Source: Thermoplasmata archaeon (lineage in GTDB: Archaea; Thermoplasmatota; Thermoplasmata; Thermoplasmatales; Thermoplasmataceae). From it: DNA of 54,023 bases. Within the stretch, counting starts at the first letter, position 1; each line of letters opens with the position of its first letter. Positions 25,718-40,297 of this stretch are shown here, one piece after another. The stretch spans positions 1 to 54,023 of the forward strand of contig JAJZLK010000049.1 of NCBI GenBank assembly GCA_021803655.1. Direction: 5' to 3'. The translations under genes were made by a program, and so were the position numbers. Under the pieces are notes generated by a model. It made no database searches and was not told the origin of the DNA. It saw only the letters and a program-made list of their open reading frames with translations.

Positions 25718-26119
25718 CTACTTCCTGAACCACGACAGATTCTTGAGAAGAGCGTTCTTTTTCTCAATGTATCTCTCTTCTGAAAGTGCTCCTGTGGCAA
25801 GGTCACGATCTAGGATCTTCATGTTATCTTCCATGACTTCCCTCCCTCTTGTCACATGGTCAGCCATTAGCTCCAGAACAGAAGCGTAAAAGAGATCACC
25901 AAGTCTGGATAACTTGAATTCAACTTTTGGTCTCCGATCGCCGGTAATCCAGCACTTCTCAACAATCCCGAATTTCATGAAATCCTTCATGTGCTTATCG
26001 ACTGCCTGTCTTGTCATTCCAAGGGATACAGCCATTTCCTCAGGAGTTGCTGAATTCCTAAGGTAGTCAATGAGTTTGAGTTTAGCAGGCGACGTAAGGA
26101 TGTGTACCGCCTCATACAT
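25718..26119 (-). CDS. ArsR-like winged-helix regulator with SHOCT-like C-terminus
   Basis: 133 residues. Residues about 1-75 form an ArsR-type winged helix (LTSPAKLKLIDYLR, then MTRQAVDKHMKDFMKFGIV as recognition helix). The last 30 residues, LDRDLATGALSEERYIEKK, resemble the SHOCT oligomerisation motif. No cysteine pair for metal sensing is visible. A CATGAAC-N6-GTTCATG palindrome lies 25 bp upstream over the probable promoter, suggesting autoregulation; the same site occurs at 31356-31375. It is divergent from the aprBA-sat operon. Confidence 0.8.
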   Translation of the reverse strand: MYEAVHILTSPAKLKLIDYLRNSATPEEMAVSLGMTRQAVDKHMKDFMKFGIVEKCWITGDRRPKVEFKLSRLGDLFYASVLELMADHVTRGREVMEDNMKILDRDLATGALSEERYIEKKNALLKNLSWFRK

Positions 26120-26143: not shown

Positions 26144-26165
26144 ACATGAACTTTATTGTTCATGT
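26144..26165. promoter_or_regulatory. Palindromic operator A, between the ArsR-like gene and aprB
   Basis: ACATGAAC-TTTATT-GTTCATGT, perfect eight-base arms. It begins 25 bp before the regulator ATG, covering the A/T-rich minus-strand ACAATAAAG that would serve as its TATA box. The core differs from operator B at 31356-31375 by one loop base. The rest of the 290-bp spacer up to aprB holds only a TATA-like TTAAATAT at 26305-26312, which would leave a leader of about 70 nt before aprB. Confidence 0.75.
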
Positions 26166-26409
26166 TATCTGTAATCCTTACAAGCGGATCCCTAAGATCG
26201 TCGGATCAGATGGGAACCAAAAGTATCACTGTTACCATATTGCTGTTTGTCTCTGCAGTTTTCCCATATTGAGCCGGTTTTGCCGAATAGATAAGGCTCT
26301 CTGGTTAAATATCTGCCGCGGATTGACTGTTTGGGGCTCTGCGTGCACTGAGGCACTTTACCATTTGTCCCCTTCTCTGCATGTACTGTCCCTCCAAGTT
26401 GTGAGATGA

Positions 26410-26877
26410 ATGCCGACCTATGTGATAGCATCAAAGTGTAAAAATAATGGAAAATGCGTGGAAATCTGCCCAAGCGATATAATGCATACAGACCCTGCAA
26501 TTGACATGGCCTGGAACGTGGAGCCGGACATGTGCTGGGAATGCCTTTCCTGTGTAAAGGCCTGCCCGGAAAATGCCATCGAAGTGAGGCCTTATGCAGA
26601 TATTTCTCCCCTGAGGTCCGAGATTGCAGTCTCCAGGAATGAGGGGAAGAATGTCATAAAATGGAAGATCACTTACAGGGATTCAAGGGTCAAGGAATTC
26701 GAGTTTCCCATCAGGACAACAGGGTGGGATACCATTCTTCCCCCGAGTTCTTCCCAGTTGAAGGCGGGGAATCTTGACGACCAGGCACTCTACAGAGAAG
26801 AGCCAAAGACCGCAGGCAGTAGTGGAGCATCAGGAAAAGGCGGCATTCAGAGGAACAACAAGGGGAGTGGTAAGTAA
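26410..26877 (+). CDS. aprB: Adenylylsulfate reductase subunit beta (ferredoxin-like)
   Basis: 155 residues. The iron-sulfur subunit of APS reductase, passing electrons to or from the FAD of AprA. The second cluster motif is complete (CWECLSCVKACP), then IRTTGWDT near the end of the conserved part. The first motif reads C10-x2-N13-x2-C16-x3-C20-P: the second cysteine of the usual CxxCxxCxxxCP is Asn, confirmed in the nucleotides. The gene overlaps aprA by one base (TAATGG). The tail beyond residue 125 is low-complexity and shorter than in bacterial AprB. Confidence 0.88.
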   Translation: MPTYVIASKCKNNGKCVEICPSDIMHTDPAIDMAWNVEPDMCWECLSCVKACPENAIEVRPYADISPLRSEIAVSRNEGKNVIKWKITYRDSRVKEFEFPIRTTGWDTILPPSSSQLKAGNLDDQALYREEPKTAGSSGASGKGGIQRNNKGSGK

Positions 26878-28712
26878 TGGAGACGAAGACTTTTGACTCT
26901 GACATCCTGATCATCGGCGGAGGCATGGCTGGATGCGGAGCCGCGTACGAAGCCCGCGCATGGGGAAAAGACCTGAACATAATGATAGTTGAAAAAGCCA
27001 ACATTGAAAGAAGCGGGGCTGTTGCTATGGGTCTCTCCGCCATCAACACCTACATCGGGACAAGGTGGGGAGAAAACACACCGGAAGACTTCCTAAATTA
27101 CGTAAGGGGCGACCTTATGGGCATCATAAGGGAAGACTTGGTCTACGATGTCGCCAGGCATGTCGACTCCTCCGTGGAACTCTTCGAAGAGTGGGGGCTC
27201 CCCATAATGAAGTCGGAGAACGGCAGGTATCTCAGGGAGGGAAGATGGCAGATACTCATCCATGGCGAGAGCTACAAACCCATAGTCGCCGAAGCTGCCA
27301 GGAAATCCGCCTCGCAAATAATAAACCGGGTGATGATAACACACCTGCTCACGGACGCGAAGGACAGCAACCGGATTGCCGGAGCGGTTGGTTTCGATGT
27401 TCGTGACGGGTCTTTCTGCATTTTCAGGAGCAAGGCAGTCGTCCTGGCTTCAGGAGGTGCAACCCACATATTCCGGCCAAGGTCTGTTGGCGAGGGATGG
27501 GGAAGAACGTGGTATTCCCCCTGGAGCACCGGATCAGCATACGCCCTGCCAATACAGGTTGGCGCGAAGATGGTACAGATGGAGATCAGGCTGGTCCCGA
27601 CCAGGTTCAAGGATGGATACGGTCCAGTCGGATCATGGTTCCTTTACCTGAAGTCGACGGCAACAAACGCAAACAACGAAAGATACGAGGACAACCGGGA
27701 CAAGCTCAGGGCAGAGTACGGCTCCTACGCAGATTCAAAGCCACTTCCCACGTGCCTCAGGAATCACCTCATGATGGAGGAGATCAGGGATGGCCGTGGC
27801 CCAATACTGATGCACACCGAGAAGGTTCTGGACACTCGCGAGAAAGAGGAGGCTGGATGGGAGGACTTCCTTGACATGACGGTGAGCCAGGCAATGGTAT
27901 GGTCCTCGCAGAATGTTGATCCGAAGGAGAGGTGGTCTGAACTTGTTCCAACCGAGCCGTACATAATGGGTTCCCATGCGGTCAATGCCGGAACATGGGT
28001 AAGCGGGCCATCTGATATATCGCCTCCTGAGTACAACTGGGGATACAACAGGATGACTACCGTATCCGGGCTGTTTGCGGCAGGAGATGCGGCTGGAGGT
28101 GCTGCCCACAAATTCTCATCCGGGTCCTTTGCTGAGGGGAGGATAGCGGGAAAGAGTGCTGTCAGGTTCCTGCGCGACAGCGGAAATTATACTCCGGAGA
28201 TCAACCAGGAAACCGTTGAAGGGTACAGGACGGATATCTTCCAGCCTCTTGACAACTATGAGATCGGAAGGAAGTTCATCTCGAAAGGGACGGTCTCCCC
28301 GTACTATCTCTATCCAAGCCAGGGCCTGAAACGTCTTGAGAAGATCATGGATGAATATGCGGGCGGAGTTACCACATTCTATACCACGAATTCAGTGAGC
28401 CTGATCCGTGGTACGGAACTTCTCACAATGCTGAAGGAGGATCTTCCCCTTCTCGGTGCAGAGGATCTGCACCAGCTCCAGAGGGCATGGGAACTTGTGC
28501 ACCGCGTCTGGACCGCGGAAGCTGTCATGAGACACACACTGTTCCGGGAGGAGACCAGGTGGCCGGGATATTACTACAGGACTGATTTCCCTAAGATAGA
28601 CGACACAAACTGGAAGGTTTTCGTTGTATCCAGGTTCAATCCTTCGGATAGCAGGTGGAGTTTCGACAAGGTCCCTCTGAAGGGCCTGGCGATCGGTAAA
28701 GGAGAGAAGTAA
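26877..28712 (+). CDS. aprA: Adenylylsulfate reductase subunit alpha (FAD)
   Basis: 611 residues, fumarate-reductase-type flavoprotein interconverting APS with sulfite and AMP. FAD binding GGGMAGCGAAYEA is at about residues 14-26; ERSGAVAMGLSAINTY, QMEIRLVPTRFKDGYGPVG and GSHAVNAGTWVSGP match the AprA active-site blocks, with AAGDAAGGAAHKFSSGS closing the FAD site. Together with Sat it can oxidise sulfite with ATP gain or reduce sulfate. No QmoABC, HdrAACB or DsrAB gene is in the window. Confidence 0.93.
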   Translation: METKTFDSDILIIGGGMAGCGAAYEARAWGKDLNIMIVEKANIERSGAVAMGLSAINTYIGTRWGENTPEDFLNYVRGDLMGIIREDLVYDVARHVDSSVELFEEWGLPIMKSENGRYLREGRWQILIHGESYKPIVAEAARKSASQIINRVMITHLLTDAKDSNRIAGAVGFDVRDGSFCIFRSKAVVLASGGATHIFRPRSVGEGWGRTWYSPWSTGSAYALPIQVGAKMVQMEIRLVPTRFKDGYGPVGSWFLYLKSTATNANNERYEDNRDKLRAEYGSYADSKPLPTCLRNHLMMEEIRDGRGPILMHTEKVLDTREKEEAGWEDFLDMTVSQAMVWSSQNVDPKERWSELVPTEPYIMGSHAVNAGTWVSGPSDISPPEYNWGYNRMTTVSGLFAAGDAAGGAAHKFSSGSFAEGRIAGKSAVRFLRDSGNYTPEINQETVEGYRTDIFQPLDNYEIGRKFISKGTVSPYYLYPSQGLKRLEKIMDEYAGGVTTFYTTNSVSLIRGTELLTMLKEDLPLLGAEDLHQLQRAWELVHRVWTAEAVMRHTLFREETRWPGYYYRTDFPKIDDTNWKVFVVSRFNPSDSRWSFDKVPLKGLAIGKGEK

Positions 28713-28734
28713 CTGCAAGGAAGGGGATTGGATC

Positions 28735-30006
28735 ATGAAATTGACAGGACACGGTGGAAAGGAGGTTGTGGAGAGGATTCTTCCGGGAGGGATGGCTGGC
28801 AGCATTATTTCTGACATGCCAGAGCTGGAAGTTGACACGCAGACCGCACATGAATGTATAGACATCGGTTATGGATTCCTGTCTCCGCTTGACGGGTTCA
28901 TGGGGAGTGAAGAAGTCGATTCTGTCTGCGAAGAGATGTCCCTGCCTGATGGGACCCTATGGAGCATACCCATAACGCTGGAGGCGAACGATGACACCAT
29001 CCGGAAGAAAGGCTTCAGGGAAGGGGATGAGATACTTCTCACCTATCATAGGAAACCACTGGCAATCATGAAAACCGGGGAAGTGTTCCAGCTTGATGCG
29101 GACAGGGTTGCCGGCAAGATATACGGCACCTCCGATCCAAAGCATCCTGGCGTCAGGAGAACTGTCTCCAGGAAAGGAAAATCTATTTCGGGAAAAGTAA
29201 TCCTTGTGGGCGAACCCGAATTCCAGCCACCATTTGACAGATTCTGGCTCACACCCAGAAACCACTTTTCCCTTTACAGGGACAAAGGATGGGAACATGT
29301 AGTGGCGCACCAGACACGCAACGTACCGCACACCGCACATGAGTGGCCCATGAAATACTGCTGGTTTGCTGCCAATGAGGATCTTTCCGTTGAGGTCCCA
29401 CATACTGGCGTCCTTGTAAATGCAGTTATCGGTGAAAAGAGGAACGGAGATTACATTGATGAGGCAATAATCCTCGGACAGGCTGAACTTGCAAATGCCG
29501 GCTATTTCAGGAAGGACACTTTTGCAGTTTCCTTCACGCTCTGGGACATGCGGTATGCAGGTCCACGGGAGGCGGTGCATCATGCCATAATGAGGACAAA
29601 TCTTGGATGCACACATCACATGTTCGGCCGGGATCATGCAGGGGTCGGGGATTTCTATAAGCCGTACGATGCCCACAGCCTCCTGAAACAGGTCAGGGAA
29701 CAACTGAATATAAAACCGGTTTTCATGATGGAGAACTGGTTCTGCCCGATATGCAGTGAGGTGACCAGTTCAGGCCTGTGTGATCATGCTGCCACGGCAC
29801 AGAATTTCAGCGGAACCCTGCTTCGGAGCATGCTCATAGACGGAGTTCAGCCGACGAGGCAGGTGATGCGACCCGAGGTTTTCCAGACGGTACAGGCAGC
29901 CAGCGACACCTACGGTTTCGGCTCTCCATTCGTCACTGACAGTTATCTCCAGAACCGGGGAAACGTCTTCAAGCTCGCAGACCCGAGAAAGGAGGTGAGT
30001 CCATGA
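28735..30006 (+). CDS. sat: Sulfate adenylyltransferase (ATP sulfurylase, dissimilatory type)
   Basis: 423 residues. Interconverts sulfate plus ATP with APS plus pyrophosphate. Active-site motifs: AHQTRNVPHTAHE (QxRN-x-x-H) and the phosphate-loop GRDHAGVGDFY. The late cysteines CPIC and CDH resemble the zinc site of Archaeoglobus-type Sat. No APS kinase domain. GGAAGG precedes ATG 28735, 22 bp after aprA, so this is one operon with aprBA. Confidence 0.94.
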   Translation: MKLTGHGGKEVVERILPGGMAGSIISDMPELEVDTQTAHECIDIGYGFLSPLDGFMGSEEVDSVCEEMSLPDGTLWSIPITLEANDDTIRKKGFREGDEILLTYHRKPLAIMKTGEVFQLDADRVAGKIYGTSDPKHPGVRRTVSRKGKSISGKVILVGEPEFQPPFDRFWLTPRNHFSLYRDKGWEHVVAHQTRNVPHTAHEWPMKYCWFAANEDLSVEVPHTGVLVNAVIGEKRNGDYIDEAIILGQAELANAGYFRKDTFAVSFTLWDMRYAGPREAVHHAIMRTNLGCTHHMFGRDHAGVGDFYKPYDAHSLLKQVREQLNIKPVFMMENWFCPICSEVTSSGLCDHAATAQNFSGTLLRSMLIDGVQPTRQVMRPEVFQTVQAASDTYGFGSPFVTDSYLQNRGNVFKLADPRKEVSP

Positions 30007-30320
30007 ATGGACAGATAATGATCAACATATGGATCAACGAGGAGAGGTTCGAAAAGATGAGGGAGGCTGGCCTCTCCGGAATGGCGCAGGACATGCTGGC
30101 AGGAATGAAGGTGACACGTGTGAAGGTCAGCGAAAAACAGAAAGACATACTGCTTTCTGAGTTTCCCATGGCAAAGTTCGACTCGTCCACCACCGGAACT
30201 ATTGAACTGCTACCCAGGAAGGTGAAGGATGAGATTTTCAACCTCTGCCTTGAAAAGAAATCAACTGGCGAAGATGTCATTGAAGCTTTCATCCTTCGAG
30301 TCAGGAACGGGAGAACGTAG
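30003..30320 (+). CDS. Small protein of the sulfur operon (DUF6955-like), 105 residues
   Basis: Its ATG overlaps the sat stop (ATGA), so it is translationally coupled to Sat. The sequence is soluble and without cysteines: an NIWINEERFEKMREAG start, a central VKVSEKQKDILL and TIELLPRKVKDEIFNLC. From memory this resembles the DUF6955 family, which tends to occur beside dissimilatory sulfur genes; I could not verify that here. Role unknown, perhaps a partner of Sat or AprBA. Confidence 0.7.
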   Translation: MNGQIMINIWINEERFEKMREAGLSGMAQDMLAGMKVTRVKVSEKQKDILLSEFPMAKFDSSTTGTIELLPRKVKDEIFNLCLEKKSTGEDVIEAFILRVRNGRT

Positions 30321-30456
30321 ACGGGAGAACTGGTTATCATGCACGAGGAACTGGTGAATGGCGCACCCGGGAAAAGACTGACAGGAACACCCGGTGCGCA
30401 CGCAGTGTTCCCGGAAACCGCATCTGGCGGAGTCGTGGAAGGCAGATGAACGTGTT

Positions 30457-31245
30457 ATGTTTTTCATCCTGTTTTTCCTGCTTCTCCTGATCTCGGGAAT
30501 CACGATTGGCATTGTGAGTGGTGTCATGGGAGTCGGTGGCGGGGTACTGTACATCCCGTTGCTTGAATTCGCTTTTGACATACCAATTGACAGGGTTGTG
30601 GGAACGAGCATAGTAGTTGTGTTTGTGACATCCCTGTCAGGTGCATATTTCCATTCAGCAGCCGGTCACATACACTGGGAGACCTCAAAGATATTCGCTC
30701 TCTGGGGAGGTCTCGGCGCAGTTCTTGGATCCCTGGTATTCATAGAAATCAGGGGCCTGACAGTAATTCTCGAGGCACTGATGACAGTGATTTTTCTCCA
30801 GGCCGCACGCATACTGGCCAGACAGGGTATCGGAGATATCACTGGAAAACCGCCTGCCTGCCCCGCATCTTTTTCCCGAAGGAAGAAGATGGCTGTCGGA
30901 TTTGTGGTCGGGATTCTCGCAGGCATAACGGGAGTGGGCGGAGGATTCCTTCTTCTCCCTATTTTCATCTGCCTTCTTGGCCTTCCCGGATATGTGGCAG
31001 TAGGTTCCTCCCTTGTGTCGGTGGTAATAATTTCCGGTGTGAGCTCTGCTTTCAAGATCGCCGGCAACGGGGTCGATTACGTTGCAGTAATTGCCCTGTC
31101 CGTGGGAAGCTTTGCGGGTACAGGATTCGGAACGAGGTATGCGAAGAGATTCCCGGACGGGTGGCTCAAGATATCATTCTCCGTGCTGCTTGTCTTCGTT
31201 GCAATTGGATTCGTCTACGAGATACTGCAAACGATCCACTTCTGA
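30457..31245 (+). CDS. TauE/SafE (TSUP) family anion transporter
   Basis: 262 residues with about eight membrane segments. The two family repeats are visible as SGVMGVGGGVLYIPLL near the N-terminus and AGITGVGGGFLLLPIF in the second half. TSUP proteins export sulfite, sulfoacetate or related anions. ATG 30457 begins the first membrane helix. Its place behind aprBA-sat suggests sulfite or sulfate movement, but direction and substrate are inference. Confidence 0.87.
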   Translation: MFFILFFLLLLISGITIGIVSGVMGVGGGVLYIPLLEFAFDIPIDRVVGTSIVVVFVTSLSGAYFHSAAGHIHWETSKIFALWGGLGAVLGSLVFIEIRGLTVILEALMTVIFLQAARILARQGIGDITGKPPACPASFSRRKKMAVGFVVGILAGITGVGGGFLLLPIFICLLGLPGYVAVGSSLVSVVIISGVSSAFKIAGNGVDYVAVIALSVGSFAGTGFGTRYAKRFPDGWLKISFSVLLVFVAIGFVYEILQTIHF

Positions 31246-31355
31246 CATGAATCAGTGGAACTCGCGTTCAGCAGGACACTTCAATCGACTCCATTAGATC
31301 CCCTCCTTAACAATCACAGTAGTTTTCAAACTCAGACAGAGTTGCAAATCTCTAT

Positions 31356-31375
31356 CATGAACTTTAATGTTCATG
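31356..31375. promoter_or_regulatory. Palindromic operator B, upstream of the SHOCT/bactofilin gene
   Basis: CATGAAC-TTTAAT-GTTCATG. It matches operator A (26144-26165) in 21 of 22 bases when the trailing TT is counted. It lies about 105 bp before ATG 31481 and 65 bp before the A/T-rich TATA region at about 31438-31450, a position suited to an activator or a repressor acting through a longer complex. A second inverted repeat, TGAAAT-N5-ATTTCA, follows at 31379-31395. Confidence 0.72.
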
Positions 31376-31480
31376 TTGTGAAATACGAGATTTCAGTGTG
31401 GAAAAATTTTTCTTGCATCAATTAAATAATTGGTTCAAAATAAATTTAAGTACCGGTCATGGATTGAGCCTGGATACAAA

Positions 31481-32356
31481 ATGGACAAAGAATACCTTGA
31501 CAAGCTGAAGGAGAGACTTGACAAAGGAGAGATCAGCCAGGAAACATATGACGAGATATCGGGGAGATGGAGCAGAGACGGAAAGAAGGGTGAACAGCAG
31601 GGGAGTGAAAACGGTGACCGTAATGGCACTGGCAGAGTGGTATCAGTTGCCGGTTCCGGACATTTTTCAGACGTTGATGCTTCTGAACTGAGGATATCTG
31701 GTTCTGGGCACATTTCCGGTTCCGTACACGTGGATAAAATGAGCATTTCTGGGAGCGGCCACGTCGAAGGGACAATAGAAGTGGGGGAGATAATGGAGGT
31801 ATCCGGATCACTCCATGCAAACAACGCCGTCAAGGCCGCGTCTGTCAGTTCTTCTGGAAGTTTCCGGTGCCTGAAAATCAACGCAGAAGAGATCGAATCG
31901 TCAGGATCAGTCAGAGTGCAGGAGGAGATGAAGGCTGGCAGGATAAAGACCTCCGGAAGCTGTCGTGCAGAGAAGATAGAGTGTGATGAACTGAGAAGTT
32001 CAGGCAGCATAAGAGCGCCGTCCATAAGTGCGAAGCTGGCGTCTATAGAGGGACTTATCGTGGCCGGGAAAGTGACTGCAGATGATTTTCGGCTTTACAT
32101 TCGCAGATCTGATAGCGTGATTGAACAGCTTGAAGCGAATACCGTGTTAATAGAGTCTGCAAGACGGAAATTCCGTTCAGGAAGTGCCAGCATAAGGGAG
32201 ATCAAATGCGGTACCGCAAAGATAGAGGCATGCACAGTCGAGAGGATAACGGGAACAGAAGTCGAAATTGGAGACTATTGCAAGGTTGGTTATGTAGAGG
32301 CAAAGATAATCCGGGTATCTGACAGAGCCGATGTCAGGGAAAGGAAGGTGCTTTGA
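31481..32356 (+). CDS. SHOCT-like N-terminus plus bactofilin-like beta-solenoid protein
   Basis: 291 residues. Residues 1-30 (LKERLDKGEISQETYDEI) resemble a SHOCT domain, followed by a charged linker. About residue 55 onward consists of short repeats of the form SGSGH/SGSV alternating with V/I-rich strands (AGSGHFSDVDASELRISGSG, then SGSGHVEGTIEV), as in bactofilins and related right-handed beta-helix polymer-forming proteins. No signal peptide or membrane segment. Start ATG 31481; an in-frame upstream extension lacks signals. Tightly followed by an MFS gene. Probably a cytosolic scaffold; role inferred only. Confidence 0.75.
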   Translation: MDKEYLDKLKERLDKGEISQETYDEISGRWSRDGKKGEQQGSENGDRNGTGRVVSVAGSGHFSDVDASELRISGSGHISGSVHVDKMSISGSGHVEGTIEVGEIMEVSGSLHANNAVKAASVSSSGSFRCLKINAEEIESSGSVRVQEEMKAGRIKTSGSCRAEKIECDELRSSGSIRAPSISAKLASIEGLIVAGKVTADDFRLYIRRSDSVIEQLEANTVLIESARRKFRSGSASIREIKCGTAKIEACTVERITGTEVEIGDYCKVGYVEAKIIRVSDRADVRERKVL

Positions 32357-32358
32357 AA

Positions 32359-33594
32359 ATGGCAGGGGAGTCCCCTTCCAGCGAAAGCGAATTCGTGTCC
32401 CCGGATGCAGCGAATGGAAGCGTAAATCCAGTATTCTACAGGTTCATGTTTTCAAGAGCGATCGGTTCAGTCTGCTTTTCTCTTTTCCTCTTATTCTTCG
32501 CCTGGAAAATGATTGTTGTTTACAAATCTGTATTTCTGGTCGGCATGATGCCGACAATCTATCTCGGGGTAGACATATTGTTATCGGTTCCACTCGGACA
32601 TCTTGTGGACCGGGTCAGCAATTCTCTCCTGAACCTGGTCGCCTCATTGTTCATGCTCGCAGGCTTCCTCATCTTCCTTCTCGGGTTTTCGTTCTATCTC
32701 GTGTATGCAGTCACCATTCTCGTATCGATCAGTGTGACGATGAAGGGCGGAAGCCTCATGGGACTGATGAAGCGGCTTGTGTCGCCGGATGGTATCAACA
32801 GGGCCACATCCCATGTTTCTGCGTCCCTGAGCCTTTCCCAGCTGATCGGCGTTGCTGCCGGAGGATTCTCCCTCGTCTTTCTCGGAGAATATACGCCTTA
32901 CGTGCTCATTGCAGGATCAATTGCATCCATAGCACTTTCCATACCCATAAAGAACGAACCGGGAAGGAACGCTGTGGGAGAGAAGGGAACCTCCGGGGAG
33001 TACAGGGAGGTATTGGCTTTCATGAAGAGGATCTGGACAGTCCTGGTATTTGCCCTGGTCATTAACGGTTTCTTCATCTCTCTTGATGTCTACGCATCAG
33101 GCCTGTTCAATATCTACCTCAAATCGAACCCGATCTCTTACACGTTGTTTGTCGCCTCATTGCCTGCGGGCATGCTGATAGGATCAATGCTTTCCAGCAG
33201 AATCTACCCGTTTCTGAACAATGCCAGGGTAACTGCCTCACTGCTGTTTCTCCTCGCCCCATTAGTTATTGTGCTTGGACTGAGTCAGTATGCAGCGGCC
33301 GACGTGATCGCAGCAGGTTTCATGGGATTCATCCTGCCGCTCATAAATGTCCCCATTAATGCTAGACTCACGAAAGTCATCCCCAGGGAGTGGTTCGGCA
33401 GGTCAATGGCAATGATGAGAATATTCACCGGGGGTTCAACACCGGTAATGGCAGTCTTCTTCTCATTTCTCTCTATATTCTTTACAGTGCCGGAAATCCT
33501 GCTGTATGTCGGGATTCTCATGTTCCCATTCTCACTGTTCGGGTTGAAGGTGGTCAGGACACTCTACAGTGTCAGCGTGACAGGCGGGAGTTGA
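32359..33594 (+). CDS. MFS transporter paired with the bactofilin-like protein
   Basis: 411 residues with about 12 membrane helices. The MFS loop between helices 2 and 3 is recognisable as LGHLVDRVSN. Overall it resembles drug or metabolite efflux MFS proteins; no substrate motif is visible. ATG 32359 follows GGAAGGTG and begins two bases after the stop of the upstream gene, so the two are an operon, downstream of operator B. Confidence 0.8.
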   Translation: MAGESPSSESEFVSPDAANGSVNPVFYRFMFSRAIGSVCFSLFLLFFAWKMIVVYKSVFLVGMMPTIYLGVDILLSVPLGHLVDRVSNSLLNLVASLFMLAGFLIFLLGFSFYLVYAVTILVSISVTMKGGSLMGLMKRLVSPDGINRATSHVSASLSLSQLIGVAAGGFSLVFLGEYTPYVLIAGSIASIALSIPIKNEPGRNAVGEKGTSGEYREVLAFMKRIWTVLVFALVINGFFISLDVYASGLFNIYLKSNPISYTLFVASLPAGMLIGSMLSSRIYPFLNNARVTASLLFLLAPLVIVLGLSQYAAADVIAAGFMGFILPLINVPINARLTKVIPREWFGRSMAMMRIFTGGSTPVMAVFFSFLSIFFTVPEILLYVGILMFPFSLFGLKVVRTLYSVSVTGGS

Positions 33595-33714: not shown

Positions 33715-35112
33715 ATGGACTTGAAGAAAAAGATCCTAACCTTGGTCATTGTGGCGCTGGTCAGTCTTTCTTTTGTACCGATCCTGGCCGGAAGCCCGAC
33801 GTCGGGCAAATTGCTCGAGGAGAAGACCAGCAACGCTCCTGCTACTTCGACTGCAGGAACGTTTGCGTATGAATCGTACTTTGAGAGTGGGGGCACTTAC
33901 TCCAACTACGGTTGGAGCCTTTCCGGCAACGGACAGCCTCCTACGATTACAAACAGCGTTAACTACAGTGGCGAACCGTCACTGAAGGTCTCGGGAGGAG
34001 AAACGCTCTCCACTTATTCTGGAATCGTCCCGGGGAACCAGTTCATATCGTTCCAGGCCGCCGTGGACGCGTCATCAGGAATGGCTGTCTTTTCCATAGT
34101 CAATTCAAATGGAAAACAGGTCGCTGGTGTCGGAATCTCAGGCAACCAGATATATGCAGGAGGTAGTTCGCTTTCCAGCATTGGAACTGCACCATCCAAC
34201 ACCGTTTATCCAGCCGGATGGACATATATAAGCGGGAACATACAGAATACCAGCACGCAGAAGAGCTTCTCATGGACCATGCAACTGTTTGTGGACCAGA
34301 CTGATGTGGTCTTTGCAAACGTATCTGTTCCCGGAGCATACCAGTACGCAGGACTCCAGATCGGTTCTAACAGTGGAAAGGTCTATTTCACTGACATTGT
34401 CCTGAGTACCTACGAGATACCGATCTATTCGCCCGGCTACAACCCAATGGAGGGATACGGCCAGGGATCAGGGCTCATAGTCTCTCTCCTTCATCCGTTC
34501 ACAATACTGCATGCAAGCATGATCCTGAACAGCTGGAATGTCCCCGAATCAGGGATACTCAGCTTCCAGATCAATGCCATGAACTACTATGGAACAACAA
34601 CCTCCACGTGCGTTGGCTTCTTCCAGCTGGGAGTTGACATAAATCCCAACGGCATGATCTCTCCGTGGTACGTACCGGGAAAGAACTGTTTCGCACACTA
34701 TTTCCTCAATTCGAGCAACCCGTCCACGCAGGCAGGATTCAAGTCTCCTCCCGGATCTATGCTGAGCCTTAGCATCGTGGATCAGCCTGCTAACGACACG
34801 ATTTTCTTCCAGATAATTGACCACAGCGTTACGCAGAACTCCGGAGACAGGTACTGGAATGCAACGATTCCCTACAGCGGAACAGAATTCTACGGGACAT
34901 ATACACAACTGGAGTTCCAGCCTTCATCGTCCTATCCCATACAGAACTACTTTTTCAGCGGTTCCCTGTATAACATGGGCTATGGAAACAGTTTCTCCAG
35001 CCTCGCCCCGCTCAATGCGAGCTACATGCTTCCCTTTACCCTGAACGCTCCCACGACCTGGAGCTTCACCTACTACAATAACGCAGCATCAGGGTACAAC
35101 CAGATTGGATGA
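33715..35112 (+). CDS. Secreted or surface protein with jelly-roll-like domain, 465 residues
   Basis: A signal peptide (KKK followed by LTLVIVALVSLSFVPIL, cleavage near AGS) begins the protein. The mature part is rich in Ser, Thr, Asn, Gly and Tyr with many N-x-S/T sites, typical of Thermoplasmata exoproteins. A region with FESGGTYSNYGWSLSGNGQ and later VYFTDIVLSTYEIP is like a carbohydrate-binding jelly-roll. No C-terminal membrane anchor and no protease motif. Specific function not recognised. Confidence 0.7.
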   Translation: MDLKKKILTLVIVALVSLSFVPILAGSPTSGKLLEEKTSNAPATSTAGTFAYESYFESGGTYSNYGWSLSGNGQPPTITNSVNYSGEPSLKVSGGETLSTYSGIVPGNQFISFQAAVDASSGMAVFSIVNSNGKQVAGVGISGNQIYAGGSSLSSIGTAPSNTVYPAGWTYISGNIQNTSTQKSFSWTMQLFVDQTDVVFANVSVPGAYQYAGLQIGSNSGKVYFTDIVLSTYEIPIYSPGYNPMEGYGQGSGLIVSLLHPFTILHASMILNSWNVPESGILSFQINAMNYYGTTTSTCVGFFQLGVDINPNGMISPWYVPGKNCFAHYFLNSSNPSTQAGFKSPPGSMLSLSIVDQPANDTIFFQIIDHSVTQNSGDRYWNATIPYSGTEFYGTYTQLEFQPSSSYPIQNYFFSGSLYNMGYGNSFSSLAPLNASYMLPFTLNAPTTWSFTYYNNAASGYNQIG

Positions 35113-35168
35113 TCTTCACAGGATCATCCATTTCTTCTTTTTTGATTCTCAAACAATCCTGTTAATGG

Positions 35169-35176
35169 TTATATAC
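35169..35176 (+). promoter_or_regulatory. TATA box of the Lhr gene
   Basis: TTATATAC lies about 34 bp before ATG 35207, supporting that start over an in-frame extension back to 35105 that would overlap the preceding gene. Confidence 0.45.
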
Positions 35177-35206
35177 GGACTATGGCTATGTGCCGGACTA
35201 CGCAAA

Positions 35207-38200
35207 ATGGAAAACGAGGATTTGGAACAGTTCAGACTTGAAGATCATCTTCCCTTTCTCGATCCGGTTATAGTGAAGTGGTTCAACCAGAACTACACGG
35301 AGATAACCGATCCGCAGAAGCGGGCTATTCCCCTTATCCATGCCCGTAAGAATGTTCTTGTATCCAGCCCCACCGGTACTGGAAAGACCCTCACAGGTTT
35401 CCTGTCGGTGATAAATGAACTCATAATCCTAGCCAGGAACGGCCAGCTTGAGGACAAAATCTACTGCGTCTATGTGAGTCCGCTCAAGGCTCTTGCCAAC
35501 GACATAGACAGGAACCTGAAGAAGCCTCTTGACGGCATTTATGAAATTCTCGTCCGGGAGGGAGAATCGCTGAAGAAGATCACCGTAGGAGTCAGGTCCG
35601 GGGACACGCCGCAGAACGAGAGACAGAAGATGCTCCGGAAACCTCCAAACATCCTCATAACAACTCCTGAGTCCCTGTCCCTGGCACTTTCCGCCCCAAA
35701 ATTCAGGGAGAAATTCACTACCGCCAGGTGGGTGATCCTTGACGAGATTCATGAAATATCGTCAACAAAACGCGGATCTCTTCTTTCGGTTAACCTTGAA
35801 CGGCTGCAGACGCTATGCGGCGGACTTATCAGGATCGGCCTCTCAGCAACACAGGCTCCCCTGGACGTCATAGCAAGCTATCTCTGCGGCTACGAGAACG
35901 GAAAACCCAGGCCGTATGAGATAGTGGACGTTGACACCAAGAAATTCCTGGACCTGAGGACCGTAACACCGGTAAGCAACCTTACCCAGTATAGTTCCGA
36001 GGTCGCCAACAACATGATGTACGATGTCCTCGCAAAGTACATAGAGGAACACCAGACAACCCTGGTCTTCACCAACACGCGGAGTTCCACGGAGCATGTT
36101 GCCATAAGGCTCAAGGCCCGTGGCGTGGAGAGCATCGAGGCGCACCATTCCTCCCTCGGGAAGGAAACCAGGCATGAGGTCGAGAGAAAACTCAAGGCCG
36201 GCGAACTGAGATGTGTGATCACCTCCACCTCCCTTGAACTGGGAATAGACATCGGGTACATCGATCTGGTGGTGCAGATCGGCAGCCCGAAGTCAGTTTC
36301 CAAAGGATTGCAGAGGATAGGACGATCCGGTCACGGGATACATGACCTCTCAATGGGAAGGTTCCTTGTTTTCGATCTTGATGATCTCATGGAATGTGCG
36401 GTACTCACCAGGGCGGCTTATGACCGGAACATTGACCGGGTAAAGGTGCCGATGAATCCCCTGGATGTTCTTTCACAAGTACTTGTAGGAATGTCGCTGG
36501 AGAAAGCGTGGGACGTTGAGGAGGCATATGACGTCCTGAAATCATCCTATACCTTCCACGAACTTCCCAGGGAGGATTTTGTTTCCACCATCGAGTATCT
36601 TGCCGGGGACATGGAGGCAGGAGGAATCTATCCGAAGATATGGTATGACAAGGCTGAACAGCGTTTCGGGAAGAAGAAGAGCACCAGGATGATCTATTTC
36701 ATGAATATAGGGACAATTCCTGACGAGTCCGACTTCCAGGTGGTTAATGAGAGGGGGAAACACCTTGGCCAGCTCAGCGAGAAATTTGCGGAGAGACTGA
36801 AATCAGGAGACGTCTTTGTCCTCGGGGCTAAGACCTACCTCTACCTGAGATCGTCCCGGAACAGGATTCTCGTAAAGGATGCCGTCGGGCTGCGTCCCAC
36901 AGTCCCTTCATGGAGCGGCGAAATGCTTCCGAGAAGCTATGATCTGGGGGTGCTGATTGGCATGTTCAGGAGTGAACTTTCCCGGAGGGTCACGGCCGGA
37001 AGCAACCCGAGACAGTGGCTCATGGATGAGTACATGCTGGACGCTTCCGGTGCGGAGAGCCTCATTTCATACGTGAAGAACCAGGCAATCTTCAACATTC
37101 CCACGGAATCGCATCTTTACGTGGAAGGGTACAGAGATGAGGCAAAGAACTACAACATCATTTTTCACGTTCCCCTTGGCCGGAGGGTAAACGACGCACT
37201 TTCCAGAGCATATGCCCAGGCCATCTCAAACCAGTATAACCAGAACCTCCGGATTACCGTTACAGACGACGGGTTCATGCTCACTTCACCGGTAAAGATC
37301 TCAATCCGGGAATCAATCGGACTGATTACACCGGAAAACTTCGAGGAAACTGTCAGGAGGTCCATCTGGAACACGGAGGTATTCAAGCAGAGATTCCGGC
37401 ATTGCGCTGCGAGGGCACTCATGGTTCTGAGGAGATACAAAGGCTATGACATTTCCGTTGCAAGGCAGCAGCTCAGGAGCGACAAGGTCCTCAAGTATCT
37501 CGATACCGTGAGAAACTTCCCCGTTCTGAAGGAGACGTTCAGGGAGATAATGGAGGAGATGATGGATGTCCCGGCAGCCCTCAGGTATGTGGGGGAAGTG
37601 ATAACCGCAGGGGACATGACTGTCAGGGAGTATTCCACCGATCCAAGCCCGTTCTCTCACGGAATCATACTTGCAGGAGTTTCTGACATCGTCCTCATGG
37701 AAGACCGTGCCAAGCTATTCAGGCAGCTCCAGAGTAAGATTCTGGAAAAGGTGTATGGAAGCGAGACCTTCAGGTTCCTCATCAGCGATCCAAAGACCGT
37801 TGAACTTCACTTTGCCGCAAAGGTCCCCAGGATCAGGGACAAAGAGAGTTACGTGGACTTCCTGAAGCACTTCCTCTACGTAGACCCTTTCAAGAGCAAG
37901 TTCAATTCACCGTTCCCTTACGCGGATGTTCCTGTGGCGGACATCACACAGGACCTCATAGATCGGGACGAACTGGTCTCGGTATTTGTCAGGGGAACCC
38001 AGTGGACCCACATTTCCATGTATGATCTGTGCAGAACTCTGTTCTCATCCGGAAAGGATCCCCTTGACTCGGATATTCCGATCATGGAACATTGCACCGG
38101 GAAGACGTTCAACGAGATCAGGAATGATTCAGGCCTAGAGGAAAATGACGTGAGGAACAGCCTCATACGGCTTGAATCCGCATACCTCATCAGGAAGAAG

Positions 38201-40297
38201 ATGCGATCCGGCATCTCCACCTATGTCAGGAATGAGATAGAGGAGAAGCCAGTCAAGGATGCGGAAAAAGAGGCTATTCTCAAGATACTTGGATCCTTCG
38301 GGCCGCTGACGGTCGATGAGATACTCATAAAGGCACCGATCAGCCAGGATGTCATTGTGTCTGTGCTTGATGGAGAGTCTGCGAAGGGATCCGTAATTCA
38401 CGATTTCATCACGCCAGTATATTCCAAGCAGTATATGCTCAAAGAGGATCTGGACGCTCTGCTCACCAGTTCTGAAAGAGACATACTTGTGGAGAGAAAC
38501 ATGTCCATGACTTCCACGGTTTCCACTGTGGATGAATATTTTGACAGGTTCGGGTTCGCATTTGATCCATGGAGCCTTATTTCCAGGGGAGTCCATGCAA
38601 GTGAGAGCATCCTGCAGGAAATGGCCGATTCCGGAAAGATATACAGGTGCAGGGCCATCAGGAGAAAGGACAGCTTTGTTTCCGGATGGCTCCTTGAGGC
38701 GCTGTATTCAATCAGGCATGAGGAACTTACCCGCGAGGGGCAGCAGGTTCTTGATGCGATCATTTCCGGGTTCGGGACGGAATCGGAGATATGCACAAAG
38801 ACTGGTCTTGAGCATAGAATCGTCAGGCAGATACTTTCCCTGCTGGAATATCATCTCCTTGCAAAGAGGGTTGAGAACCGGTACATCCCATTCCTCAGCG
38901 GTCCTCCGAAGGTGCCCGCGGATGATGCTGTTCGCATGCTGTTCGAGAAGTTCGGACCGGCGACCAGGAGGGAGATTTCCAGCTACTTCTGGATTGACCT
39001 GAAGACTGTGCCCGGAGACATAAAGAACCTGTATCACAGGGGAGAGGTATATTACGGCTCAACACCGGCAACGGGCAGAAAAGACCCGGTAATTCTTTCG
39101 CTGTCGGATCCCGTTGGCATCTACCTTGAACACAATTATTCGAGAATATCCTCCGTGAATGGAGTCCTGATTTCTGAGGGAAAAGAGTTGGCAGACTTCT
39201 CCATGAACGTCAGGAGCAACGTATGCTGGATTGATGACGTGGAGGGGAAGCTTCCGGACCCGGGAATCCTCGAGGCGGCAATGAAGTTCATGGCGGATTC
39301 CGGATACGTCCGGGCCTCGGTCGCAAACTTTGCGGCACAGTCCGCAACGAAGGAAATATCGGTGGGAAGCATCAGGACACTCCCGGTGACTGAGGATGAA
39401 CTGTTTGAGAGATCCATTGCGCACTATCTTGCTCCCCGCAGCATCCATAACCACCAGCCCTTCGTGCTGATCAAGAATTTCAGGCTTGGTTTCCGGACGG
39501 AATCTGAATTCTCCCGCACAGGACTAAGTGAACGGAGTCTGGACACTTACCTGAGATCAAGGCTGATCTTCAACTTCTCCGGCCCGTTTGCAAACGTTTC
39601 CATCGGATCCCTGGACACAATATCGCTGTTCAGGGATGTGCGTGAAAAGGAAATATCCGAGATCGAGAAATCGATCCTGAGGTTCATCGAGGAGAGCGGT
39701 TACGTCTCTGAACAGGAGATTAGGAGCTCCGTCCGGGGATCCGGCATTGGGCTGAGAGGATACCTGAAGGACATATTCGGGATGGGGCTCATCGCCAGGG
39801 ATCATTCGAGGAAATACACATACGTTCCACCAGGCAACGGCAGGATGGAGTCTCTCACCACACTGATTAAGTTCATGGCTGACACGTTCGGGTTCTGCGA
39901 TAAAGAGAGAATAAAGGGAGCCTTCCCGGAAGTACCTGAAGACTACATTTCGGACGCAATCAATGCCTTGGTTTCCCGCGGTGATGTGGAGGAGACAATG
40001 TCACCATTGGCAAGATCAATTGTCTACCTCTCCCCGGTGAAGCCGAAGAAGGCATCGGGAAGTTCCATAATATTCCCCAGGGAGAGCATCATGCTTTATC
40101 ACAGGGAATACCTGAAACAGAAGTTTGGCAGTTCAAACGTTTTCCTCCTTGTGAATGACGGAAAAGTCGTCTGTGCCTTCAAGGCAAGGAAGAAGGGGCA
40201 CGCCCTTAACGTCACCTGGATTAACGGAGATCGCTCAAACAGGGATGTCATTCGCAGGGGGCTAAACACCATGGGTTATGCCGTGGCCTTCTCCTGA
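35207..40297 (+). CDS. Lhr-family superfamily 2 helicase with very long C-terminal extension
   Basis: 1696 residues. Helicase motifs: Walker A SPTGTGKT at 54-61, SPLKALAND, TTPESLSLAL, DEIH box in VILDEIHEI, LSATQAP, TSTSLELGIDIG and QRIGRSGHG. The Lhr-Core type winged helix and beta-barrel follow to about 850. Most archaeal Lhr proteins end there; here about 800 more residues continue, with several winged-helix-like segments (for example FGTESEICTKTGLEHRIVR and FGPATRREISSYFWID), the layout of bacterial long Lhr (Lhr-Core plus Lhr-CTD). The role is DNA repair, 3'-5' translocation and annealing; specific activity of the extension is inferred. Confidence 0.9.
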   Translation: MENEDLEQFRLEDHLPFLDPVIVKWFNQNYTEITDPQKRAIPLIHARKNVLVSSPTGTGKTLTGFLSVINELIILARNGQLEDKIYCVYVSPLKALANDIDRNLKKPLDGIYEILVREGESLKKITVGVRSGDTPQNERQKMLRKPPNILITTPESLSLALSAPKFREKFTTARWVILDEIHEISSTKRGSLLSVNLERLQTLCGGLIRIGLSATQAPLDVIASYLCGYENGKPRPYEIVDVDTKKFLDLRTVTPVSNLTQYSSEVANNMMYDVLAKYIEEHQTTLVFTNTRSSTEHVAIRLKARGVESIEAHHSSLGKETRHEVERKLKAGELRCVITSTSLELGIDIGYIDLVVQIGSPKSVSKGLQRIGRSGHGIHDLSMGRFLVFDLDDLMECAVLTRAAYDRNIDRVKVPMNPLDVLSQVLVGMSLEKAWDVEEAYDVLKSSYTFHELPREDFVSTIEYLAGDMEAGGIYPKIWYDKAEQRFGKKKSTRMIYFMNIGTIPDESDFQVVNERGKHLGQLSEKFAERLKSGDVFVLGAKTYLYLRSSRNRILVKDAVGLRPTVPSWSGEMLPRSYDLGVLIGMFRSELSRRVTAGSNPRQWLMDEYMLDASGAESLISYVKNQAIFNIPTESHLYVEGYRDEAKNYNIIFHVPLGRRVNDALSRAYAQAISNQYNQNLRITVTDDGFMLTSPVKISIRESIGLITPENFEETVRRSIWNTEVFKQRFRHCAARALMVLRRYKGYDISVARQQLRSDKVLKYLDTVRNFPVLKETFREIMEEMMDVPAALRYVGEVITAGDMTVREYSTDPSPFSHGIILAGVSDIVLMEDRAKLFRQLQSKILEKVYGSETFRFLISDPKTVELHFAAKVPRIRDKESYVDFLKHFLYVDPFKSKFNSPFPYADVPVADITQDLIDRDELVSVFVRGTQWTHISMYDLCRTLFSSGKDPLDSDIPIMEHCTGKTFNEIRNDSGLEENDVRNSLIRLESAYLIRKKMRSGISTYVRNEIEEKPVKDAEKEAILKILGSFGPLTVDEILIKAPISQDVIVSVLDGESAKGSVIHDFITPVYSKQYMLKEDLDALLTSSERDILVERNMSMTSTVSTVDEYFDRFGFAFDPWSLISRGVHASESILQEMADSGKIYRCRAIRRKDSFVSGWLLEALYSIRHEELTREGQQVLDAIISGFGTESEICTKTGLEHRIVRQILSLLEYHLLAKRVENRYIPFLSGPPKVPADDAVRMLFEKFGPATRREISSYFWIDLKTVPGDIKNLYHRGEVYYGSTPATGRKDPVILSLSDPVGIYLEHNYSRISSVNGVLISEGKELADFSMNVRSNVCWIDDVEGKLPDPGILEAAMKFMADSGYVRASVANFAAQSATKEISVGSIRTLPVTEDELFERSIAHYLAPRSIHNHQPFVLIKNFRLGFRTESEFSRTGLSERSLDTYLRSRLIFNFSGPFANVSIGSLDTISLFRDVREKEISEIEKSILRFIEESGYVSEQEIRSSVRGSGIGLRGYLKDIFGMGLIARDHSRKYTYVPPGNGRMESLTTLIKFMADTFGFCDKERIKGAFPEVPEDYISDAINALVSRGDVEETMSPLARSIVYLSPVKPKKASGSSIIFPRESIMLYHREYLKQKFGSSNVFLLVNDGKVVCAFKARKKGHALNVTWINGDRSNRDVIRRGLNTMGYAVAFS

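Follow-up and report, generated by a model that had tools for sequence, protein, structure and literature searches.

The subject of this work is a 54,023-nucleotide stretch of the genome of a Thermoplasmata archaeon (contig JAJZLK010000049.1, called the window below), in which the gene of a small winged-helix regulator and the gene of a bactofilin-like scaffold protein lie on either side of a group of sulfur genes and carry the same palindromic operator. Our data indicate that the two genes probably form a conserved, autoregulated regulator/scaffold divergon of the Thermoplasmata, which was split in the lineage of the window by an inserted sulfur-gene cassette. The best reading of the predicted system would be an autoregulated one-component switch for envelope stress or efflux. 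The regulator, a protein of 133 aa with a SHOCT-like tail, is encoded by an open reading frame at 25718-26119 on the minus strand, and the SHOCT/bactofilin-like scaffold of 291 aa by one at 31481-32356 on the plus strand. An earlier note on this DNA had placed both genes at these positions and had proposed that a shared operator links the regulator to a SHOCT/bactofilin-MFS operon; the positions are correct, and the link is supported by the motif counts and by the conservation of the divergent pair in relatives.

The pattern CATGAAC-N6-GTTCATG is found by motif search exactly at 26145-26164 (CATGAACTTTATTGTTCATG) and at 31356-31375 (CATGAACTTTAATGTTCATG), neither copy being assigned to a strand. 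The first copy is separated by 29 nt (start codon to AAC) from the regulator, and the second by 109 nt (GTT to start codon) from the scaffold. Read as a direct repeat, the copies extend over 26145-26166 and 31356-31377 and are identical in 21 of 22 nt, so that pattern and repeat searches agree with the match that the earlier note had described. When up to two mismatches are allowed, the window holds 3 matches, compared to 0.28 expected from dinucleotide shuffling. In the assembly of 1.65 Mb (91% complete) the motif occurs exactly twice, both times at the window sites, and copies with one mismatch are absent; there are seven other copies with two mismatches, compared to four for a reversed control pattern. 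No exact copy was found in the 116 other genomes of the order. Therefore, we are dealing with a specific pair of sites, and the genome-wide and order-wide counts rule out a generic repeat, as well as agreeing with the proposed very small regulon. The looser pattern TGAAC-N6-GTTCA has one further occurrence in the genome besides the operator pair, possibly by chance, at 31987-32002 within the coding sequence of the scaffold.

We looked for orthologues of both proteins in 117 genomes of the order and found the regulator in 35 of them (E<=1e-3); where a genome has both genes they are nearly always divergent neighbours with start codons mostly 118-151 bp apart. A search of GTDB returned 37 regulator loci, all of them labelled Thermoplasmata, Thermoplasmatota, DHVE2/Aciduliprofundum or an unspecified archaeon/Euryarchaeota, and a divergent scaffold gene accompanies the regulator in 34; in haloalkaliphile and sediment records the gap within the pair is 146-178 bp. 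Strong matches were confined to the class in a sample of 390 genomes of the phylum. The operator follows the gene pair: each of the 39 distinct intergenic regions of divergent pairs has AAC-N6-GTT at the equivalent place (1.6 expected from dinucleotide shuffles), and 33 of the 39 have the longer TnAAC-N6-GTTnA (0.18 expected). The two counts, 34/37 loci and 39/39 regions, describe what defines a divergon, i.e. divergent genes with a shared symmetric site, and related sites do stand next to the same genes in relatives, as had been anticipated. Judging from this comparison of sequences, the usual, native layout is a tight divergent pair whose genes share one operator region.

The position of the operator is kept as well. 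In the family of the window 26-29 nt separate it from the start of the regulator and 106-108 nt, usually 107-108 nt, from that of the scaffold, with one exception of 101 nt to a scaffold start codon that is itself uncertain, and in the Aciduliprofundum/DHVE2 family the distances are 26-33 nt and 79-80 nt. The spacings of 29 and 109 nt in the window resemble those of relatives on each side. In several relatives a second site follows about 20 bp further (14 bp in a few); at this place, some two turns of the helix away from operator copy 2, a degenerate palindrome can be read in the window (GAAATACGAGATTTC, 31380-31394). Genomes G006, G021 and G016 have TTCAAC-N6-GTTGAA a single time each, at the regulator/scaffold pair; further sites of this form exist in G048, G074 and G013, and genome G007 has three extra ones, two of which lie inside two copies of one repeated element. 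In G007 a 3-kb stretch occurs twice, apparently identical in its listed frames (loci L158 and L164, at 161216 and 178737), and each copy contains a recombinase-like gene and an operator-like site, TTCAACTTCAAAGTTGAA. Six further loci of the same class were checked on the regulator side only, and the site was found in four and not found in two of them.

What separates the two genes in the window is the stretch at 26165-31355 (plus strand), which is not between them in relatives. On its plus strand lie aprB (26410-26877) and aprA (26877-28712), both above the NCBIfam cut-offs, followed by three genes assigned by Pfam: sat for ATP sulfurylase (28735-30006), a DUF6955 gene (30003-30320) that travels with apr-sat, and the gene of a TauE/SafE-type exporter (30457-31245). 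This aprBA-sat-DUF6955-TauE group (26410-31245) is found inside the regulator/scaffold pair in the window genome only. We found aprA in 11 of the 117 genomes of the order, both congeners being without it, and three genomes have aprB-aprA-sat-DUF6955 in the same order at other places. The aprBA-sat cluster is best seen as a transferred cassette, which appears to have landed in the divergent intergenic region and to have left one operator with each gene; the sulfur genes, and the DUF6955 and TauE genes with them, are most likely bystanders and not targets. Both window copies share the CATGAAC form, which no other genome of the order has, and the second copy may have arisen by target duplication during the insertion, or by a larger duplication that was followed by decay. 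The linkage across the sulfur genes which had been claimed for this locus stands as far as the operators on both sides are concerned, but it is not the native layout; the cassette is patchily distributed and looks inserted. As a separate observation, aprA has in-frame stops in genomes G115 and G002.

The window is not the sole case of separation. In genome G016 (locus L084, 8258-11844) the pair is split by a gene for a 653-aa surface protein with NosD/beta-helix and fibronectin-III parts, and an operator stands on each side. The G016 scaffold groups closely with an Aciduliprofundum scaffold in the tree, so it may have been imported along with an operator of its own. Regulator and scaffold are on separate contigs in G020, where two tandem sites remain with the scaffold and none with the regulator. 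G063 has the two genes in convergent orientation, and no operator site was found there. These separations suggest that it is the site of the scaffold promoter that would be essential, and that autoregulation, though common, can be dispensed with. The operators are conserved, their spacing is kept on both sides and G016, split by an unrelated gene, also has an operator on each side; therefore, a regulon with two targets is supported.

The regulator has its winged helix-turn-helix (wHTH) domain at about residues 1-71, with the recognition region TRQAVDKH at 36-43, and gives weak matches to wHTH families of the ArsR/Crp/HVO_A0261 type. Its AlphaFold model is confident (mean predicted local distance difference test score, pLDDT, 93.3) and shows a winged helix-turn-helix followed by a long helix (72-109) and a further one (114-127), which together end in a C-terminal helical hairpin; this two-helix hairpin, at about residues 98-127 (25739-25828, minus strand), is of the kind that characterizes SHOCT. 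The structural matches in the PDB are wHTH proteins of the ArsR/MarR/HxlR type. Closer family assignments are not obtained: the window protein scores 14.5 bits with HTH_5 (ArsR/SmtB), below the cut-off of 22, it has a single cysteine and no CxC-type metal-site motif, and weak PadR matches are seen in five of 26 regulators (best E 0.0013), the window protein not being among them. Pfam gives no SHOCT (PF09851) match on the window regulator alone, while such a match is present in 12 of 26 orthologues (E<=0.1).

The scaffold has its SHOCT-like hairpin at the N-terminus (residues 3-32, 31487-31576, plus strand). It matches SHOCT with an E value of 2e-5 and bactofilin (PF04519) with 1.5e-5, both slightly below the Pfam cut-offs (24.6 bits against 27 and 25.6 bits against 27.9). 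Among 26 scaffold homologues SHOCT is matched in 19 (E<=0.1) and bactofilin in 22, with a best E value of 7.9e-12; for SHOCT the best values in regulators and scaffolds are about 2e-5 to 3e-5. The curated cut-off of PF09851 is reached by neither protein of the window, hence our term "SHOCT-like". In the AlphaFold model of the scaffold (mean pLDDT 91.4) the helical hairpin (helices 3-14 and 20-32) is joined by a disordered linker to a long beta-solenoid with strands from residue 53 to 290; a fold search with this model against the PDB returned nothing at E<=0.001. When the regulator tail and the scaffold N-terminus were compared by HHalign, the probability was 96% (P 3.7e-9), and control segments stayed below 1%. 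The two hairpins match as a single predicted SHOCT-like module. The proposal of a SHOCT-like segment in both proteins is in this way upheld by Pfam matches in orthologues and by profile comparison, and for the regulator tail also by the modelled hairpin.

Directly 3' of the scaffold follows an MFS transporter gene (32359-33594, plus strand; MFS_1, E 1.7e-15). The gene at this place differs among genomes, being an ABC-2 exporter, an MFS transporter or an unrelated gene, and the congener G090 has a related MFS gene in convergent orientation; this rules out a strictly conserved bactofilin-MFS operon. Exporters are nevertheless downstream of the scaffold in many genomes. A scaffold version without SHOCT (about 215 aa) exists in 12 genomes, where it is divergent from an unrelated wHTH protein of 82 aa (loci L066-L068, L171-L181, L183). 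In most such pairs a palindrome, ACTCACAA-N-TTGTGAGT or one close to it, lies between the genes. The AAC-N6-GTT seen upstream of these scaffolds is actually a part of this palindrome, beside a different regulator, and was discarded as a candidate operator. The SHOCT-less pair appears to be a variant of the same module, and in 9 of the 12 genomes its scaffold is followed by an MFS gene, which supports a functional link between scaffold and exporter.

The scaffold promoter of the window has a TATA-like stretch at 31421-31452 (plus strand) with ATTAAATA at 31421-31428 and TTTAAGTA at 31445-31452, which was located by a simple score and falls in a conserved alignment block. In three lineages the distance from the end of the operator to the likely TATA box is about 39, 50-51 or 72 bp, and this spacing is nearly constant within each lineage; for the family of the window, another candidate box lies at about 48 bp. 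Terminator and sigma-70 promoter signals showed no excess over shuffles between 26000 and 31600, and sigma-70 patterns are ill-suited to archaea. From the positions of the sites the following mechanism can be proposed. A dimer of the regulator would read the operator, and the copy at the regulator gene would cover the core promoter of that gene, with autorepression as the expected outcome. At the scaffold promoter the operator would lie about 40-75 bp upstream of the TATA-like box, an arrangement that suits switching from upstream more than mere blocking. Scaffold and exporter would act at the membrane against a stress or a toxic compound, and the SHOCT-like tail of the regulator would be the likely input module. 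Several points weigh against this interpretation: no operator was found near the regulator in the convergent pair of G063 and at two further loci of the class, exporter genes downstream of the scaffold are missing in part of the genomes, TATA was located in the aligned promoters by a simple score, and the effect at the scaffold promoter may be either activation or repression.

Following the suggestion of the earlier note that the scaffold may titrate or sense for the regulator, one could argue that the two proteins do not merely share an operator but also bind each other through their SHOCT-like hairpins, so that the state or amount of the scaffold sets how much regulator is free for DNA. Such a titrated switch would extend, and not replace, the divergon explanation, and we consider it a possibility, though one that is doubtful at present. 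The matching hairpins of the two partners speak for it, as does the finding that SHOCT-less scaffolds pair with a SHOCT-less regulator in 12 of 12 cases, and the HAAS-PadR dyad provides a published precedent of the idea (PMC11237479). However, this both-or-neither pattern amounts to one change on the tree, and because one change suffices we gave the correlated absence less value as proof of contact; additionally, SHOCT is found with many unrelated domains, and a SHOCT domain that was assayed for self-association gave a negative result (PMC3581485). Direct contact of regulator and scaffold through the shared module is plausible. It is a rather speculative thought that a bactofilin-like scaffold at the membrane binds and holds its own regulator in this way, the state of the envelope scaffold setting transcription of scaffold and exporter without a kinase or a small-molecule ligand.

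Other explanations concern the two sites themselves. The sulfur cassette could have come under the control of the regulator, with apr-sat governed from operator copy 1 (or 2) as well, as a sulfur regulon; copy 1 precedes aprB by about 245 bp and the two sites bracket the cassette, but they keep their usual distances from regulator and scaffold and do not stand at an apr promoter, and among the genomes of the order searched no other regulator-bearing relative has aprA, weak partial matches aside, which makes this explanation unlikely. It is even less probable that a different protein reads the operator and that the regulator beside it owes its place to something else, as the site occurs wherever regulator and scaffold are divergent (39/39) and a different palindrome accompanies scaffolds that have a different regulator. 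The bracketing of the insert by a 22-bp direct repeat might also be taken for a target-site duplication or an element end without any regulatory role. The sequence is, however, conserved in relatives free of the insert, it is a symmetric palindrome and its spacing is kept on both sides; a pure mobile-element end is ruled out by that conservation, and a duplication devoid of regulatory meaning is the least credible of the explanations. Misassembly, by which the cassette would have been joined into this place by the assembler, has to be considered for a draft genome of 80 contigs, with one assembly of the species to go by, yet it is very improbable: an artefact at a short repeat alone would not yield two copies with the correct spacing, both flanking genes are intact, and G016 shows that such splits occur.

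The split divergon can be compared with several known systems. ArsR/MarR-type autoregulators of efflux genes are wHTH proteins with a symmetric operator on their own promoter and a divergent exporter target, and our regulator shares with them the fold, the symmetric site at its own promoter and a divergent target with exporter genes; it differs by the SHOCT-like C-terminal hairpin, by scores below the family cut-offs and by the lack of a CxC-type site. The scaffold resembles bactofilins (PF04519) by its predicted beta-solenoid and the Pfam match in most homologues, whereas its solenoid is longer, it has the N-terminal hairpin, and the window member scores below the cut-off. In the HAAS-PadR-like wHTH dyad a stand-alone wHTH protein is coupled to a partner that carries a short helical module, often together with a beta-helix (Toastrack), and the dyad was proposed as an alternative to two-component signalling (PMC11237479). 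This would be the closest published concept: our pair also consists of a small stand-alone wHTH protein and a neighbour with a short helical module, but it is archaeal, SHOCT-like on both partners, has an identified (predicted) operator and lacks a clear PadR match. Also, none of the HAAS-type Pfam models (DUF1700, DUF1048, DUF1129) is among the matches of the 26 scaffolds. The Bacillus subtilis protein CAB15517.1, with SHOCT-like and Toastrack parts, is cytoplasmic, was proposed to form complexes under the membrane and is linked to the Lia envelope-stress response (PMC11237479). Our scaffold has the same succession of an N-terminal SHOCT-like hairpin and a beta-helical domain; its solenoid, however, matches bactofilin and not DUF4097/DUF2807 (two weak matches among 26), and no PspC or LiaI neighbours were found. 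In the open-access library searched we found no paper that joins SHOCT and bactofilin or describes the regulator/scaffold pair.

The regulator, its predicted operator and its main target are conserved across many Thermoplasmata, including acidophile, DHVE2/Aciduliprofundum and haloalkaliphile records. This gives a regulatory context to two poorly understood modules, SHOCT and the archaeal bactofilin-like proteins, and suggests how Thermoplasmata may control an envelope scaffold together with efflux. Since the operator is specific, the target is essentially one operon and separated pairs exist in nature, the system can be tested quickly.

Two minor observations were made around the scaffold gene. 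A 19-nt inverted repeat (95% complementary) connects 28624-28642 inside aprA with 31461-31479, i.e. the 19 bases immediately before the scaffold start codon; antisense pairing is possible, or the repeat is due to chance. Also, a large Lhr-type helicase gene is located near the scaffold in the window (35105-40297), and such a gene is convergent with and adjoins the scaffold in seven haloalkaliphile or sediment Thermoplasmata loci (L119-L121, L125, L126, L128, L130).

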